DNA of 64,000 bases from Thermoanaerobaculia bacterium (lineage in GTDB: Bacteria; Acidobacteriota; Thermoanaerobaculia; Gp7-AA8): the NCBI GenBank assembly GCA_017883235.1, contig JADGNY010000014.1:1-64000 (forward strand), read 5' to 3'. Position 1 is the stretch's first letter. Each line of letters begins with the position of its first letter. Below, in pieces: positions 3,324-18,195 of this stretch. Under the pieces are notes generated by a model, which worked only from the letters and a program-made list of their open reading frames with translations, searched no databases and was not told the origin of the DNA. The position numbers and the translations under genes are program-made.

Positions 3324-3566
3324 TTATCGTTTCACGCGCTTCATCGCCTCGATCAACTCCGCCGGGGAGTCGTGCGCCAGCTCCTCCTCTTGTTCCGCGG
3401 TGCCGCGAACGAGCTCGATCGTTTCGCGGTAGGTGGCGAGATAGGCGCGGCAGGAGGGGCAGACCAGCAGGTGCAGGTCGAAACTGTGGCGGGTCTCCGC
3501 GTCCAGCTCGTCGTCGACATACGAGTCGAGGAAGGCGATCAACTCGATGCAGGTCACGTGGCTCAT
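3324..3566 (-). CDS. Zinc-finger anti-sigma factor
   Basis: Small 80-residue protein with the zinc-associated anti-sigma signature His-x3-Cys-x2-Cys (HLLVCPSC, residues 32-39). The family binds an ECF sigma factor and keeps it from RNA polymerase. No transmembrane segment is visible, so it is probably cytoplasmic. Its ATG overlaps the stop of the upstream sigma gene by four bases, typical of a translationally coupled sigma/anti-sigma pair. The sigma gene upstream is frameshifted in this sequence, so the pair may be inactive here. Confidence 0.85.
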   Translation of the reverse strand: MSHVTCIELIAFLDSYVDDELDAETRHSFDLHLLVCPSCRAYLATYRETIELVRGTAEQEEELAHDSPAELIEAMKRVKR

Positions 3567-4175
3567 ATCGCGCCTCGCATGTGCGGGTCGAGCAGCGTGC
3601 GCAGCGCCTGGCGGGCGCGGTGCAGTTTGACCTTGAGATTGTCGCGGGTGATCTTCAGCTTTTCCGCGACGATGTCGGCCGGAAGCTGCTCGATGTCGCG
3701 GAGCACCAGCACGATGCGGTACGGCTCGGGCAGTTGATCGATGCACCGCCGCACCAGAGCGCGCGCCTGTTCGCGCTGGAGGATCTCCTCGGCGGTCTCG
3801 GTCCAGCCGACCGACGACTGCTGCTGATTGCCGTCGGCTTCGAAGGCAGGTAACAGCGCGTCGACATCTTTCTCGCGCCGTGCGCGGATGCGCAGCTTCA
3901 TCAGTGCGCAATTCACGGCAATTCTGTGCAGCCACGTCGAGACGCGGCTCTCCGAATTGAACTCGCCGATGGCGCGGAAGGCGGCCACGAAGGTCTCCTG
4001 AACGGCGTCGCGGGCCTCTTCCTCGTCGCGCAGGAATGCGGCGCGTCACCGCCAGCAGCGGCGCGGCGTGGTGTTCCACCAACTCCTCGAATGCAACTTC
4101 GTCGCCGGTGCGCAATCGCTCGATGAGGTACCCGTCATCGGCCAGCGTAGCGCGTTCAGTCGTCGAGGAGAGCAT
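3563..4175 (-). pseudogene. ECF RNA polymerase sigma factor with a one-base frameshift
   Basis: Sigma-70 family ECF factor split over two frames. The first part (from ATG at 4175) reads MLSSTTERATLADDGYLIER and continues through EEALFEELV-like region 2.1 residues to AVTRR. The rest, from about 3988 down, holds region 2 (FNSESRVSTWLHRIAVNC) and region 4 (LPEPYRIVLVLRDIEQLPA, then an HTH). The reading frame changes near 4030-4040 around the bases CGCATTCCTGCGC. The whole span is 613 nt, one more than a multiple of three, and removing one base restores the family pattern RRxLRDEEEARDAVQETF. It is therefore either a real frameshift mutation or a sequencing error. The start overlaps the end of the GGDEF-EAL gene by 20 bases and its stop overlaps the anti-sigma gene by 4. 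Confidence 0.8.
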
Positions 4176-6123
4176 TGAACATGTGACCCGAGGCCACCAG
4201 GCGGCCGGCGGCCTCCTCGGAGAGCGGCTCCGAGAAGAGGAAGCCCTGCGCATATTCGCATCCGAGCGCCTTCAGCCGCTGGAGTTGACTCAGAGTCTCC
4301 ACCCCCTCGGCCACGACCTCGATGCCGAGGTTGTGGGCGAGGGAAATGATGGTCTTCACCAACTCGCAATGTTCGTCGCTCGAATCGAGCGTGGCCACGA
4401 AGGAGCGGTCGATCTTCAGCGCGTCGATCGGCAGAGTGACCAGATACGCCAGCGACGAATAGCCGGTTCCGAAGTCGTCGATGCAAAGCTCGATGCCGAG
4501 CTGCTGTACGCGCTCGAAGAACTCCGCGGCGCTCCGCTCGACCATGGCGCTCTCGGTGATCTCGAGCCGGAGCGAGGCCCCTTCCACTTGCGCCGCGGAC
4601 ATCACGCGATCGAGCTCGTCGATCAGGGTCGGGTCGAAGGTCTGCCGCAGCGAGACGTTGATGCTCGCCGTCAGCGGCGCGCCGGCGATGGTGTGCCAGT
4701 GGCGCAGTTGCGCGCAGACGCGCTTGAGCACCCACACGCCGATCGGCACGATGAGGCCGTTCTCCTCGGCGATGGAGATGAAGTCGTTCGGCGCGATCGT
4801 GCCGCGCAGCGGATGATCCCAGCGCAGAAGGGCCTCGAATCCCTTCACCTCGCCGGAGAGAAGGGAGACGATCGGCTGATAGACGAGGTGGAACTCCTCG
4901 CGCTCCACCGCGCGGCGCAGATCCATCTCCATCAGCATCCGCTCCACCGCCTGCACGTGCATGCGGCGGTCGAAGATCTCGTAGCGCCCCTTGCCGCGCT
5001 CCTTGGCGCGGTACATGGCCGTGTCGGCATCGCGCAGCACCGCGTCGGCGGTGCGGTAGCCGGTGGCGCTGACGGCGATGCCGATGCTCGCGGAGGTGAA
5101 GACCTCTTCGTTCGAAACCGTGAACGGCCGCGCCAGCTCAGCGGTGATCCGCTCGGCGATGCCGGTCGCTTCGCTGGCGTCGGAAATGTTCTCGATGAGG
5201 ATGGTGAACTCGTCGCCGCCGATGCGCGCCACGAGATCGGATGGACGAACGCAGCCCAGCAGCCGGTCCGCGGCGAGGCGGAGCAGCTCATCGCCGGCGA
5301 TGTGGCCGAGCGAGTCGTTGACGAGCTTGAAACGGTCGAGATCGAGAAAGAGCACGGCGAAGTCGTAGACGTGCTCGCGGGCATTCATGGCGATGGCGTG
5401 ATCGAGCCTGTTCATGAACAGCGAGCGGTTGGGCAGACCGGTGACGGCATCGTGCATGGCGTCGTGCGTCATCTGGCGTTCGCTGTGCTGGCGCTCGGCG
5501 ATCTCGCGCTGCAGCTCGGCGTTGATCCGCATCAGCTCCTCGCCGCGCTCCGCGTAGGCGGCGAGATCGGCATGCGCACGCTCCAGCGCGCGCGCCGACT
5601 GCTGCCGCTGTAACTCGGCCGAGGTGCGGCCGGCCACGACGAGAAGCGTGGAGCGGATCAGCGCCGCGTCCGCCATCGGCCGCCGGCTCATCACGCCGAT
5701 CCAGCCGAACGCCGCTCCCTCGGCGTCGATCAGGGCGATGGCCGCGTAACTCTCAATCGACTGCTCGGCGAGTCCGGGGTCGAGCGGGTAGCGCGCGGCG
5801 GCACCGTTGGGGATCCAGCAGAAGTGCTGTTGCACCACTTCGCCGCACGGCGTTCCGCCGAGCACATATTCAATGTTGGCGACGTGCGCGTTGTCGACGA
5901 AGCGGGCCACGGTCCGCGCGCGGAGCGGCTCTTCGCCGGCCAGCTCCGCGGCAAACGCGAACTCGGCGCCGAGCGTCTGCGCCAGCTCGCTGACGAGCGT
6001 GCGGAAGTACTCGGGACCGGGACTGCAGAGTGAAAGTCCTTCGAGCAATTCGCGGATCGGCTCGTGCAAGCCGGCCGGCTCTTCTGTCTTCGTCATCCTG
6101 GAGGCCTGGTCATTCATGGGCAT
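4156..6123 (-). CDS. GGDEF-EAL cyclic-di-GMP turnover protein with N-terminal sensor region
   Basis: A 655-residue cytoplasmic protein predicted to make and/or break cyclic di-GMP. Residues 25-170 resemble a GAF-like sensor, 175-220 form a coiled coil, then comes a GGDEF domain with the intact active-site sequence GGDEF at 302-306. An RxxD inhibitory site (RPSD, 293-296) sits five residues before it. The EAL domain has the intact signature FEALLRW from residue 429, plus IDDFGTGYSS and the later EGVET motif. Both catalytic domains therefore look active, so the net direction cannot be told from sequence. No membrane helix is visible. It heads an operon with the frameshifted sigma factor and anti-sigma factor. 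A 14-bp palindrome lies 37-50 bases upstream of its start. Confidence 0.92.
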   Translation of the reverse strand: MPMNDQASRMTKTEEPAGLHEPIRELLEGLSLCSPGPEYFRTLVSELAQTLGAEFAFAAELAGEEPLRARTVARFVDNAHVANIEYVLGGTPCGEVVQQHFCWIPNGAAARYPLDPGLAEQSIESYAAIALIDAEGAAFGWIGVMSRRPMADAALIRSTLLVVAGRTSAELQRQQSARALERAHADLAAYAERGEELMRINAELQREIAERQHSERQMTHDAMHDAVTGLPNRSLFMNRLDHAIAMNAREHVYDFAVLFLDLDRFKLVNDSLGHIAGDELLRLAADRLLGCVRPSDLVARIGGDEFTILIENISDASEATGIAERITAELARPFTVSNEEVFTSASIGIAVSATGYRTADAVLRDADTAMYRAKERGKGRYEIFDRRMHVQAVERMLMEMDLRRAVEREEFHLVYQPIVSLLSGEVKGFEALLRWDHPLRGTIAPNDFISIAEENGLIVPIGVWVLKRVCAQLRHWHTIAGAPLTASINVSLRQTFDPTLIDELDRVMSAAQVEGASLRLEITESAMVERSAAEFFERVQQLGIELCIDDFGTGYSSLAYLVTLPIDALKIDRSFVATLDSSDEHCELVKTIISLAHNLGIEVVAEGVETLSQLQRLKALGCEYAQGFLFSEPLSEEAAGRLVASGHMFNALLDD

Positions 6124-9301: not shown

Positions 9302-10513
9302 ATGGACACCCTCCGCATCGCTGCCGGCGCGCTCTCCGCGCACAAGCTTCGCAGCTTCCTCACGCTGCTCGGCGTGATCATCGGCGTGATGACGGTCATC
9401 GCCGTCGTATCCATCATCTCCGGTCTCAACTCGTACATCGCGGAGAAGGTGTTCACGCTCAGTCCGGACGTCTACATCGTCACGCGGTTCGGGATCATCA
9501 CCAGCCGCGAGCAGTTTCTGGAAGCGATAAAGCGGAAGATAATCGACTGGCACGACTACGAAGCCATCCGCCAGAGCTGCACGCGATGCGCCGCGGTCGG
9601 CGCGCAGGAAACCAGCCAGCTCACGGTCAAGAACGGCTCGCAGAAACTCAACGGCGTCCGCGTTCAGGGCGGCACGGCCAACATCGGTGAGATCAGCAAC
9701 GTCGACGTCGAAGAGGGACGTTTTTTCAGTAATACGGAAGATCAGCACGCGGCGATGGTGGCCGTCATCGGCTCCGACGTGAAGGACCAGCTCTTCGGCA
9801 AGCTTGATCCGCTCGGCCGCACCATTCGCATCGCCGGGCATCCGGCGCGCGTGATCGGGTTGCTGCGCAAGCAGGGCTCGGTCCTCGGCCGGAGCCAGGA
9901 CAATCAGCTCTACATGCCGCTCTCCTCGTACGGCAAGGCGTTCGGTACGAAGCGCGGCCTCGATCTTTTCATCAAGGCCTCGGGCGGCGTTCCCGGACTC
10001 GATAAATCGCTCGATCAGGTGAGGGTGCTGATCCGCAGCCGGCGGAAGACAGGATTCCGCGCCGACGATCCGTTCGGAGTGGTCTCCGCGGAGGCGTTGC
10101 AGACGCTGTGGAAGAGCATCTCGGCAGCCGGATTCGCGGTGATGATCTTCATCTCCGGCATTTCGCTCGTCGTCGGCGGCATCGTCATCACGAACATCAT
10201 GCTGGTATCGGTCGTGGAGCGGACGCGCGAGATCGGCATCCGCCGCGCCCTCGGCGCCCGCAAGCGCAACATCCAGTTGCAGTTTCTCACCGAGGCCATC
10301 CTGCTTTCGCTCGGCGGCGGCATCGCCGGCGTGCTCCTCGGCGTCCTGATCAGCTTCGGCATTGCCGCCGCCTTCCCGCTGCCGACGCGCGTGACGCCGA
10401 CACTGGTCATGGCCGGGCTGGCCGTCGCCGTCATCACCGGCGTTGCTGCCGGATTCTTCCCCGCGATGAGAGCGGCCAATCTGCCGCCGGTCGATGCGTT
10501 GAGGGCGGAGTGA
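9302..10513 (+). CDS. MacB/FtsX-type ABC permease, first copy
   Basis: A 403-residue inner-membrane protein with the MacB architecture: a first transmembrane helix (about 16-40) after the conserved lead KLRSFLTLLGVIIGV, a large periplasmic domain (about 45-270), and three C-terminal helices with the FtsX motif RTREIGIRRALGARKRNI. Proteins of this type use ATP bound by a separate or fused nucleotide-binding domain to drive periplasmic movements for export of lipoproteins, antibiotics or toxins. ATG 9302 is the best start; the frame before it is tandem-repeat DNA. The next gene is a paralogue 12 bp downstream. There is no fused ABC domain, and none is encoded nearby. Confidence 0.9.
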   Translation: MDTLRIAAGALSAHKLRSFLTLLGVIIGVMTVIAVVSIISGLNSYIAEKVFTLSPDVYIVTRFGIITSREQFLEAIKRKIIDWHDYEAIRQSCTRCAAVGAQETSQLTVKNGSQKLNGVRVQGGTANIGEISNVDVEEGRFFSNTEDQHAAMVAVIGSDVKDQLFGKLDPLGRTIRIAGHPARVIGLLRKQGSVLGRSQDNQLYMPLSSYGKAFGTKRGLDLFIKASGGVPGLDKSLDQVRVLIRSRRKTGFRADDPFGVVSAEALQTLWKSISAAGFAVMIFISGISLVVGGIVITNIMLVSVVERTREIGIRRALGARKRNIQLQFLTEAILLSLGGGIAGVLLGVLISFGIAAAFPLPTRVTPTLVMAGLAVAVITGVAAGFFPAMRAANLPPVDALRAE

Positions 10514-13617: not shown

Positions 13618-13657
13618 AGACCCGAACGAAACCCCGCCCACCCGTGTTCTTAGGTAC

Positions 13658-14281
13658 ATGAAGAACTCATGGACCGGCGGCGAAGTCACCGTCCAGCCTG
13701 ATGGGGGGGAGCTGGCGGTGGCGGTTCATCGCTGCGAGCCGGGGGCGTTCGAGCGGCTCATCGACCGGTTCGAACAACCGCTGTTCACCTACGCGCACGG
13801 CATCCTGCAGAACGCCTTCGACGCTCAGGAAGTGGTGCAGGACGCCATGATGCGCGCCCACAAGGCGTTAACCCGGCAGTACGACGAGGCACGCTGCGCC
13901 GCGCTCGCCCTCCGGCCGTGGCTGTTCAAGACGGTGCGCAACCTCTGTCTCAACAAGCGCCGTTCGAAGCGCAGCTCGCTGGAGCAACCGTTGGAATCGT
14001 TCGACGACGGCCGCCTCGGACCGTTCGTGGCGCTGGAAGGCTCGGAGCTGGAGCGGAAGGAAGAGGTCGAACTGCTGCGGCGGGCCATGGCTCTGCTGCC
14101 GGTCGACGCGCGCGAGCTCATCGTGCTGCGGTTCATGGAAGAGATGTCCTATGCGGAGATCGCCAAGACGGTCGGATCGACCGAGGCCGCGCTCCGCGGG
14201 AAAGTGTTCCGGTCGCTGAAGCTGCTTAGGGATGCACTTACGAAAGGAACGGACCAGAAGGGGGTGGCGTATGCAATGTAG
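13658..14281 (+). CDS. ECF-type RNA polymerase sigma factor of a putative alkylation-response pair
   Basis: A 207-residue sigma-70 family protein. Region 2 runs about 20-90 (FERLIDRFEQPLFTYAHG, then FDAQEVVQDAMMRAHKAL and the LFKTVRNLCLNKRR segment). Region 4 runs about 150-200 (LLPVDARELIVLRFMEEMSY, then the HTH IAKTVGSTEAALRGKVFRSL). No extra C-terminal domain is present. The ATG at 13658 is preferred; the open frame upstream is repeat sequence. Its stop overlaps the start of the next gene by 11 bases, which couples translation of the sigma factor to that of its partner. The partner combines an anti-sigma zinc finger with DNA-alkylation repair domains, so this sigma factor very likely drives an alkylation-damage regulon. 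Function of the regulon is inferred, not seen. Confidence 0.9.
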   Translation: MKNSWTGGEVTVQPDGGELAVAVHRCEPGAFERLIDRFEQPLFTYAHGILQNAFDAQEVVQDAMMRAHKALTRQYDEARCAALALRPWLFKTVRNLCLNKRRSKRSSLEQPLESFDDGRLGPFVALEGSELERKEEVELLRRAMALLPVDARELIVLRFMEEMSYAEIAKTVGSTEAALRGKVFRSLKLLRDALTKGTDQKGVAYAM

Positions 14282-15146
14282 AACGGTACTGACCCGAATC
14301 GATGCACTTCGCACCCGCGAGCTCGCGCCGATCGAGCAGACGGCGGTCGAGCAGCATCTGCGCACCTGCCGCAGTTGCGCCGCCTCGCAGGCCGACGTCG
14401 ATCATCTCGCCGACGCCGTCAAGTCGCTCGCTGTCGCGCCTCCGGTCTCCTGCCGCGATGCGTGTTGCGATGCCACCGCCGATTCCTTCGACCGCGTCGA
14501 AGACGTCTGGGTTGCGTTCTCGAATGGCCGTATCCGGATGATCGCCGAGGCCGATTCGATCGACGGCGTCCGCCAGGCGTACGCGAAGAAGTACGGCCGC
14601 GTTCTCGAACCGGCTACGATTCCGGCCGTGCTGCGCCGCCAGGTCATCGCCGCGATCGGCGGTGAGGGTGTTGAGTCGCCGAAGGTCGATCTCGATGCCG
14701 CGAACGATCTGGAGCACGATGTCCTCCAGACCCTGACCCGCATTCCTCGGGGCGAGGTCCGCACCTACGCCTGGGTGGCCCGCCAGGCCGGCCGCCCCCG
14801 CGCCGTCCGCGCCGTCGCCAACGTCATCGCCCGCAACGCCGTGCCGTACGTCGTGCCGTGTCACCGCGTCGTGCCGTCGTCGGGCGGCATCGGCAACTAC
14901 ATCTTCGGCAGCGCCACCAAGCGCGCGCTGCTGGAGCGCGAAGGGGTCGATGTCGACCAGCTCGATGCACTGGCGAAACAGAACGTTCGCTACATCGGCT
15001 CCCGCACCACGCACATCTTCTGCTTCCCCACCTGCCGCGACGCCAAGCGGATCCAGGAGAAGAACCGCGTGCCGTTCCGCGATGCCGATGTCGCGATGGA
15101 AAACGGGTACCGGCCGTGCCGTCACTGCCAGCCCGTGGCGGCGTAG
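14271..15146 (+). CDS. Anti-sigma zinc finger fused to alkylguanine-DNA methyltransferase and Ada-type zinc domain
   Basis: A 291-residue protein with three parts. Residues 1-50 are a zinc-associated anti-sigma domain with the His-x3-Cys-x2-Cys motif (H29, C33, C36). Residues 75-225 are an O6-alkylguanine-DNA alkyltransferase: a degenerate N-terminal lobe, then IPRGEVRTYAWVARQAG, a conserved AVRAVAN helix, and the active site VPCHRVV with acceptor Cys197. Residues 238-291 are an Ada-type zinc domain with all four cysteines at E. coli Ada spacing (C251, C255, C283, C286); in Ada the first of these accepts methyl from phosphotriesters. There is also a Cys-rich CRDACC linker at 61-66. The domain order is reversed relative to Ada and the AraC part is missing. 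ATG 14271 is the natural start, overlapping the sigma gene. Inference: alkyl transfer or zinc loss changes sigma binding. Confidence 0.88.
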   Translation: MQCRTVLTRIDALRTRELAPIEQTAVEQHLRTCRSCAASQADVDHLADAVKSLAVAPPVSCRDACCDATADSFDRVEDVWVAFSNGRIRMIAEADSIDGVRQAYAKKYGRVLEPATIPAVLRRQVIAAIGGEGVESPKVDLDAANDLEHDVLQTLTRIPRGEVRTYAWVARQAGRPRAVRAVANVIARNAVPYVVPCHRVVPSSGGIGNYIFGSATKRALLEREGVDVDQLDALAKQNVRYIGSRTTHIFCFPTCRDAKRIQEKNRVPFRDADVAMENGYRPCRHCQPVAA

Positions 15147-17329: not shown

Positions 17330-17363
17330 CGAGGTTTAATTGTAGCGACTCTCTCCGTGCGAC

Positions 17364-17583
17364 CTACCCCCACGCCAGCGCCGCCTCGAACCCCGGCACC
17401 GCCGCCGCCAACTCCTCGGCATGCGCGCACGCGACACCCTCCAGCTCGCGCGACAACACCGCATCGACGGTCGTCTCGTCCCTCTTGGCGAACCACCGCA
17501 GCATCTCCCGCTGGAGGACGCGGCGGCGGTGCTGCCGGAGGCGATACGCCTCGTGGAGTTGCAGGCGAGGATTCCGCGGTACC
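17364..17583 (-). pseudogene. Partial, internally inverted copy of the 129-residue gene at 18196
   Basis: Bases 17364-17514 repeat 18196-18345 with few mismatches and encode the same C-terminus, ending PGFEAALAWG. Bases 17515-17583 then match 18346-18414 in the opposite orientation, so the middle of the gene was flipped. The N-terminal third is absent. This is a duplicated, rearranged and dead copy. It abuts palindrome array B. Confidence 0.8.
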
Positions 17584-17629
17584 ACACTTTCGACTTTGGA
17601 CCTGACCCCAAGTTAGACCCTCCCAGTGG

Positions 17630-17938
17630 GGTACGCCCCGTCCCCCAGTGGGGTACGCCCCGTCCCCCAGTGGGGTACACCCCGTACCCCAGTGGGGTAC
17701 GCCCCGTCCCCCAGTGGGGTACGCACCGTCCCCCAGTGGGGTACACCCCGTACCCCAGTGGGGTACACACCGTCCCCCAGTGGGGTACACACCGTACCCC
17801 AGCGGGGTACGCCCCGTCCCCCAGTGGGGTACACACCGTCCCCCAGTGGGGTACACACCGTCCCCCAGTGGGGTACACACCGTACCCCAGTGGGGTACGC
17901 ACCGTGTTCCTGGTGGGGTACCACCCTTCCCCATGTCA
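17630..17938. repeat. Palindrome array B (22-bp unit, 14 copies)
   Basis: Fourteen head-to-tail copies of a 22-bp unit, consensus CCAGTGGGGTACRCCCCGTC with CC. Each unit contains CCCCAGTGGGG and GGGGTACRCCCC, so any copy can pair with itself or its neighbours. Copies differ mainly at two positions (GTCC/GTAC and GCCCC/CACCC/CGCACC/CACACC). The unit is not a multiple of three and leaves several frames open on both strands; the resulting Pro/Gly/Val-rich frames are not taken as genes. Confidence 0.92.
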
Positions 17939-18195
17939 ACCATCCAGGAATGGTGGTTTGAAGCCTCATCAAGCCGCGGTCGCGTCTCGCCCCAACCCCT
18001 CAAGACTCCGAACATTGGCTGCTAACCCGGGCCAGGCCGGCGAGACGCCAGCGCTCCTGGCTGCTGCCGGAAGCGCAGCCTAGCCAGCTTCGCTGGCACA
18101 AACGGGTCGGACGGACCCGGGACTCAATTCTGACCGAAGGGAAGCAGAGCAAAGGACCGCTGCTGCGCCATCTCGCCGCCGCGTTCTCGCGCGAA

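Follow-up and report, generated by a model that had tools for sequence, protein, structure and literature searches.

Why should a DNA-repair protein of a soil bacterium begin with a zinc anti-sigma domain and be encoded directly behind an ECF sigma factor? The question is raised by a locus in the window, by which we mean the whole stretch of DNA that was analysed, 64,000 nucleotides of contig JADGNY010000014.1 from a Thermoanaerobaculia bacterium. The answer that we develop here is that such a repair/anti-sigma fusion may let the cell sense alkylation damage through the repair reaction itself.

The two genes at the centre of the locus (Table 1) share 11 bp (ATGCAATGTAG), and the overlap is kept among homologues, since each of the 17 full-length fusion homologues has an overlapping sigma ORF upstream. 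In the Pfam scan the product of the first gene showed Sigma70_r2 (3e-10) and Sigma70_r4_2 (1e-10); it consists of sigma2 and sigma4 only and is thus an ECF sigma factor, and its orthologues share an identical MKNSWTGG start. Directly downstream of the fusion gene, in 18 of 20 loci carrying the zinc anti-sigma (ZAS) domain, lies a SpoIIE-type PP2C phosphatase gene, which is the probable third gene of the operon. Elsewhere in the window, the minus strand at 3324-4253 encodes a zf-HC2 anti-sigma-like C-terminus (MSHVTCIELIAFLDSYVDDELDAETRHSFDLHLLVCPSCRAYL) in one frame with a start like that of an ECF sigma, the two being separated by what looks like a frameshift; this is a second sigma/anti-sigma locus, possibly broken or affected by a sequencing error. 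Dense GC-rich tandem repeats occupy the intergenic region at 17330-18020 (translation ...VPHWGTVCTPLGDGVYPTGG...).

Table 1. Features of the sigma/fusion locus in the window, and related loci in other genomes
Feature	Position	Strand	Details
Predicted autoregulated promoter, GAACG-N14-CGTGTT (-35 / -10)	13624..13648	+	9 nt before sigma ATG
ECF sigma factor, 207 aa	13658..14281	+	Pfam Sigma70_r2 and Sigma70_r4_2; TIGR02937
Fusion gene, 291 aa: predicted zinc anti-sigma, O6-methylguanine methyltransferase and Ada zinc domain	14271..15146	+	
Predicted ZAS / anti-sigma domain, residues 1-69	14271..14477	+	ligands C3, H29, C33, C36; helices 3-14, 20-32, 34-53, 61-69
Complete MGMT/Ogt domain, residues 70-226	14478..14948	+	acceptor Cys197 in PCHRV; Y166, R180, N189, H198, Y210, E224
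Ada-type zinc domain, residues 241-288	14991..15134	+	C251, C255, C283, C286
SpoIIE-type PP2C phosphatase, 240 aa	15195..15917	+	PF07228, 1.2e-39
DUF1203 genes with sigma promoter	G000:C179:25806-26385 (L146), L150, L154, L169, L184, L186, L188		
ZAS-less sigma and Ogt-AdaZn pairs clustered with repair genes	L054:8603-11135, L052, L049, L058, L060, L251, L253, L254		

The fusion protein combines three Pfam families, all exceeding their gathering scores: zf-HC2 (residues 1-37, 26.1 bits for a cut-off of 22.2), then the Ogt methyltransferase (DNA_binding_1 at residues 148-226, 1.8e-27), and last the Ada metal-binding domain (Ada_Zn_binding at residues 241-288, 6.5e-11). A Pfam scan up to an E-value of 1 found no HTH family in it. 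The ZAS domain was detected as zf-HC2 in 16 of 17 members, and its four ligands, C3, H29, C33 and C36, were invariant in 19 sequences. Together with C197, C251, C255, C283 and C286 they make nine residues that are invariant in the 17 full-length homologues, taken from 17 genomes. Conservation of the catalytic set of the methyltransferase (Y166, R180, N189, C197, H198, Y210, E224) and of the four Ada cysteines extends further still, to all 40 relatives with or without the ZAS domain, so that repair is under selection. The roles of the MGMT residues (acceptor Cys, His, Glu, Tyr, Arg finger and Asn hinge) are those that we take over from human MGMT. C251 aligned to Cys38, the acceptor of E. coli Ada, and the Ada zinc domain matched 1adn, 1u8b and 1zgw; moreover, in a Foldseek search the full-length model had E. 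coli Ada-C (1sfe) as its best match (E 2e-8) and also matched methylated N-Ada (1u8b/1wpk).

Is this architecture a real gene? The fusion was found in 18 of 18 genomes of the Thermoanaerobaculia family of the window, two copies being cut at contig ends, and, within a set of 41 related genomes, in a single genome from a second family of the order. A later scan of 396 Acidobacteriota genomes yielded further full-length copies in families f56 and f40, which brings the families outside that of the window to three (f2, f56, f40), and at the loci examined the sigma ORF was immediately upstream. These independent genomes rule out an assembly error or chimera, the possibility that the sequence-only reading had named as fatal to its proposal, and the search for further zf-HC2/ZAS-Ogt-Ada fusions beside ECF sigma genes that it had called for was thus answered in all 18 family genomes and in three more families. 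That reading had also described an intact Ogt-type methyltransferase, an Ada-type four-cysteine domain, an overlapping ECF sigma gene, and a domain order and lack of an AraC part unlike Ada. All of this was borne out (ZAS, MGMT, Ada zinc, in that order), as were its residue numbers H29, C33, C36, C197, C251, C255, C283 and C286. It had not named the fourth ZAS ligand, C3, and it had missed the promoter, the third gene and, in other phyla, the relatives without ZAS. In the genome of the window the fusion carries the sole Ada zinc domain. Classical Ada (AdaZn and AlkA fusions) is absent from this genome and from most sister genomes; long-frame classical Ada zinc domains were present in only about 4 of the 18 family genomes, whereas members of the class that lack the pair commonly have them. 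A stand-alone Ogt close to the fusion core exists in f40 (L248-L250).

We then asked what the N-terminal domain resembles. An AF2 model of the domain alone (71 residues) had a pLDDT of 88, and its 14 best Foldseek matches among 350,542 PDB chains were all anti-sigma domains, with weak E-values of 0.7 or more. They comprise MucA, the zinc protein RsiW, RskA, RslA and RseA, each solved with its sigma factor. With VIA-align the model gave a Z of 7.5 (rmsd 6.3 over 69 residues) against zinc RsiW and of 6.8 (rmsd 2.0 over 53) against MucA. Because middling Z values are common among helical bundles, the weight of this result lies in the uniformity of the match list. A PDB sequence search with the ZAS part alone gave no match, and the fold search alone succeeded. 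On this model, residues 1-69 form what is to all appearances an anti-sigma domain, for which inhibition of the sigma factor is predicted. As judged from sequence and model, the sigma/anti-sigma pairing and the intact repair chemistry that had been read from the letters are strongly supported by conservation, by the matches to solved anti-sigma folds, and by the alkylation-repair neighbours of the relatives described below.

The promoter indicates how the pair is likely to be expressed. GAACG-N14-CGTGTT, with one- or two-base variants in a few cases, precedes the sigma start in each of the 23 distinct ZAS loci whose 5' end is readable, and of the 18 loci that were examined first, 16 have it 9 nt from the ATG. 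This conservation at a near-fixed distance predicts a leaderless, autoregulated transcript. When the family genomes were scanned with the motif for other targets, the same promoter was found before a DUF1203 (PF06718) gene in all seven family genomes that have one (once with a mismatch); three of the seven had played no part in choosing DUF1203. Shuffled upstream regions match the motif at about 2e-4 per region, and the DUF1203 gene of a genome without the sigma/fusion pair (G027) has no motif. DUF1203 is the best predicted and best conserved candidate member of the regulon. A SAM-dependent methyltransferase is a second, weaker candidate, the promoter standing just before two orthologous genes (L166, L193) and a distant homologue (L177). 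This promoter was not found as a conserved feature of the classical alkylation-repair genes (alkA, other ogt) of the Thermoanaerobaculia family, and the motif was not seen upstream of the other ogt genes of the window genome. As for alkA, a single match in G009 coincides with the start of a divergent gene, has no counterpart at the alkA of other family genomes, and looks like chance; Oxygenase-NA was also rejected as a regulon member in this family, where the gene is absent. In Actinomycetota, GCAACC-N14/15-GTGTTC, which has a similar -10, stands before the start of the pair sigmas L051, L053, L055 and L056, and when six actinobacterial genomes were scanned for the motif, the matches were few and included, in G410, G415 and G416, the promoter of the pair itself. 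One 12-kb contig carries the sigma promoter twice in exact inverted orientation (G008:C82:9334-9358, minus strand, and 10352-10376, plus strand), which is probably an assembly hairpin.

Relatives that lack the zinc domain bear on the same question. An ECF sigma gene immediately precedes the genes for Ogt-AdaZn proteins without ZAS in Pseudonocardia, Frankiales, Rokubacteria, one Dehalococcoidia MAG, one Holophagae MAG, and the Acidobacteriota families f11 and f31, so that the phyla include Actinomycetota, Rokubacteria and Chloroflexota; one Chloroflexi copy (L057) has no adjoining sigma. In place of ZAS these proteins have a short N-terminal segment only (L..LA..APxGL.DRVL), which aligns to the end of the anti-sigma domain. 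The Pseudonocardia pairs adjoin AlkB, Oxygenase-NA or a second Ogt, and those of Rokubacteria and f31 adjoin Oxygenase-NA (PF09859, a family with a described action on damaged DNA; the AlkB-type 2OG oxygenase is PF13532). Such neighbours link the sigma factor with alkylation repair in a way that does not depend on the fused domains. When 30 pair sigmas and 62 other ECFs were placed in a quick tree, the sigmas of ZAS pairs formed one clade (SH-aLRT 100), those of Pseudonocardia, Frankiales and f11 fell near each other, and those of Rokubacteria and f31 formed a separate clade (support 100). The partnership between sigma and repair protein thus spans several sigma lineages and, since its most widespread representatives lack the zinc domain, ZAS is not essential to it.

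From these results we propose a self-contained alkylation-damage switch. The DNA-binding part of classical Ada is of the AraC type; in the fusion system, the sigma and anti-sigma would take its place. The ECF sigma and the fusion protein would be co-produced, their genes overlapping in a single operon, and the zinc domain at the N-terminus would keep the sigma inactive. Cys197 of the MGMT domain and Cys251 of the Ada zinc domain would irreversibly accept methyl groups from damaged DNA, and the grip on the sigma would be disrupted either by the methylation itself or because the methylated suicide protein becomes unstable and is lost. Once freed, the sigma factor would transcribe its own operon from GAACG-N14-CGTGTT, giving more repair protein and more brake, and would also drive a small regulon including the DUF1203 gene. 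We lean slightly towards this picture of a split Ada, with a sigma/anti-sigma pair where Ada has its AraC part and with release of the sigma by suicidal methylation. For the wider claim, that each methyl transfer both repairs a lesion and removes one brake, the DNA-repair reaction being itself the sensor, and that this solution arose independently of Ada in several phyla and with different ECF lineages, we see the chances as evenly balanced. The domains, residues, operon, promoter and their conservation are supported by the sequences, which also give good support to the sigma/fusion pairing and the repair chemistry; we infer the binding of sigma, the acceptance of methyl groups and the coupling of methylation to release. 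A methyl transfer that frees the sigma would fit all the findings.

We favour the switch because the ZAS architecture is invariant in the Thermoanaerobaculia family and the three other Acidobacteriota families, because the ZAS ligands do not vary and the fold matches anti-sigma domains solved with their sigma, and because the promoter is conserved before both the sigma and DUF1203 genes. The AlkB, Oxygenase-NA and second Ogt genes beside ZAS-less pairs argue in the same direction, as does the finding that classical Ada is mostly absent where the pair is present and frequent in class members without it. Against the switch count the most widespread relatives, which have no ZAS, the lack of a conserved promoter at alkA and other ogt genes together with the absence of Oxygenase-NA in the family, the weak fold E-values (0.7 or more), and the usual role of ZAS. 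Indeed, ZAS domains are usually taken as redox or zinc sensors, and the pair could be of that kind, with thiol oxidation or zinc loss freeing the sigma and the repair domains being merely an output of the stress regulon. The C3-H29-C33-C36 ligand set is of the redox type, RsrA-type and antisigma models match weakly, and the conserved candidate regulon members that were found are DUF1203 and a methyltransferase, not alkA. However, a redox or zinc sensor leaves unexplained why repair domains are covalently fused to ZAS in every case, and why they stand beside the sigma, with AlkB and Oxygenase-NA as neighbours, in relatives that have no ZAS. We regard it as rather unlikely.

Alternatively, the fusion could act as a co-activator, its methylated Ada zinc domain gaining affinity for DNA and aiding the sigma at its promoters, like methylated N-Ada in E. 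coli, with ZAS as a tether only. Methylated Ada does activate transcription and needs the sigma subunit for it (PMC4437013), most relatives pair the ECF sigma with Ogt-AdaZn alone, and the four Ada cysteines are retained everywhere. Yet Arg45, the residue of E. coli Ada that contacts the A-box, corresponds to Ala258 in the fusion, and Ala258 is kept in 22 of 22 ZAS proteins, which disfavours a direct reuse of Ada's promoter recognition. Moreover, the upstream sequences inspected showed no second, Ada-box-like element besides the ECF promoter, and the ZAS domains of known pairs inhibit their sigma. A co-activator role thus seems unlikely. It is very unlikely that the fusion is a repair protein made constitutively, its zinc domain being a vestige or a structural element, and that the sigma is controlled otherwise, for example by the downstream PP2C phosphatase: the phosphatase gene is conserved, such enzymes are frequent in sigma-control pathways and many relatives lack ZAS, but a vestige would hardly keep its ligands invariant across divergent proteins or match an anti-sigma fold, and no gene for a STAS or kinase partner caught the eye next to the operon.

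What would such a switch mean? The anti-sigma factors known so far respond to envelope stress, oxidation, metals or light products, and we know of none that senses DNA damage. In the open-licence literature we found no description of a ZAS-methyltransferase fusion or of an alkylation-controlled sigma, and the sensing principle has a fair chance of being new. The sequence-only statement that no system like it had been described holds, within that literature, for the fusion and its mechanism, on which we found no paper, but not for the association of an ECF group, ECF122, with methyltransferases, which has been published (PMC8999054). If the proposal is true, this would be the first sigma/anti-sigma switch with the DNA-repair reaction itself as sensor, and bacteria would possess a second adaptive response to alkylation, independent of Ada, that sets sigma activity directly by stoichiometric, irreversible repair. 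It would also provide a mechanism for ECF groups such as ECF122, and the switch would be a portable biosensor design for alkylating agents.

Among known systems, the closest in chemistry is E. coli Ada (N-Ada zinc domain, AraC HTH, MGMT), which takes up methyl groups on two suicide acceptors and, once methylated, acts as an activator (PMC4437013). The fusion has both methyl-acceptor domains with cysteines and catalytic residues intact, and autoregulation and repair-coupled sensing are predicted for it as well. It differs in having no AraC HTH, in the C-terminal position of its zinc domain and in the replacement of Arg45 by Ala; an N-terminal zinc anti-sigma domain and an ECF sigma appear to replace the DNA-binding part. 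Ada-AlkA fusions and stand-alone Ogt have the same repair domains, but neither a sigma partner nor an anti-sigma domain. With the pairs of ECF sigma and zinc anti-sigma (ChrR, RsrA, RsiW, RslA) the system shares the C-H-C-C ligands, the predicted anti-sigma fold, the overlap with the sigma gene and a putatively autoregulated ECF promoter, whereas its C-terminal part is a suicide DNA methyltransferase with an Ada zinc domain and not a cupin, a thiol switch or a membrane segment. Finally, a 2022 review describes the ECF122 sigmas as having neighbouring 6-O-methylguanine DNA methyltransferases, no known anti-sigma and an uncharacterised mechanism of regulation (PMC8999054). By that description, on which alone the likeness is drawn, an ECF sigma adjoins an MGMT gene there as here; the ZAS-bearing fusions differ from this group in carrying an anti-sigma domain, which their ZAS-less relatives do not, and ECF122 is possibly the ZAS-less version that we saw in Actinomycetota.
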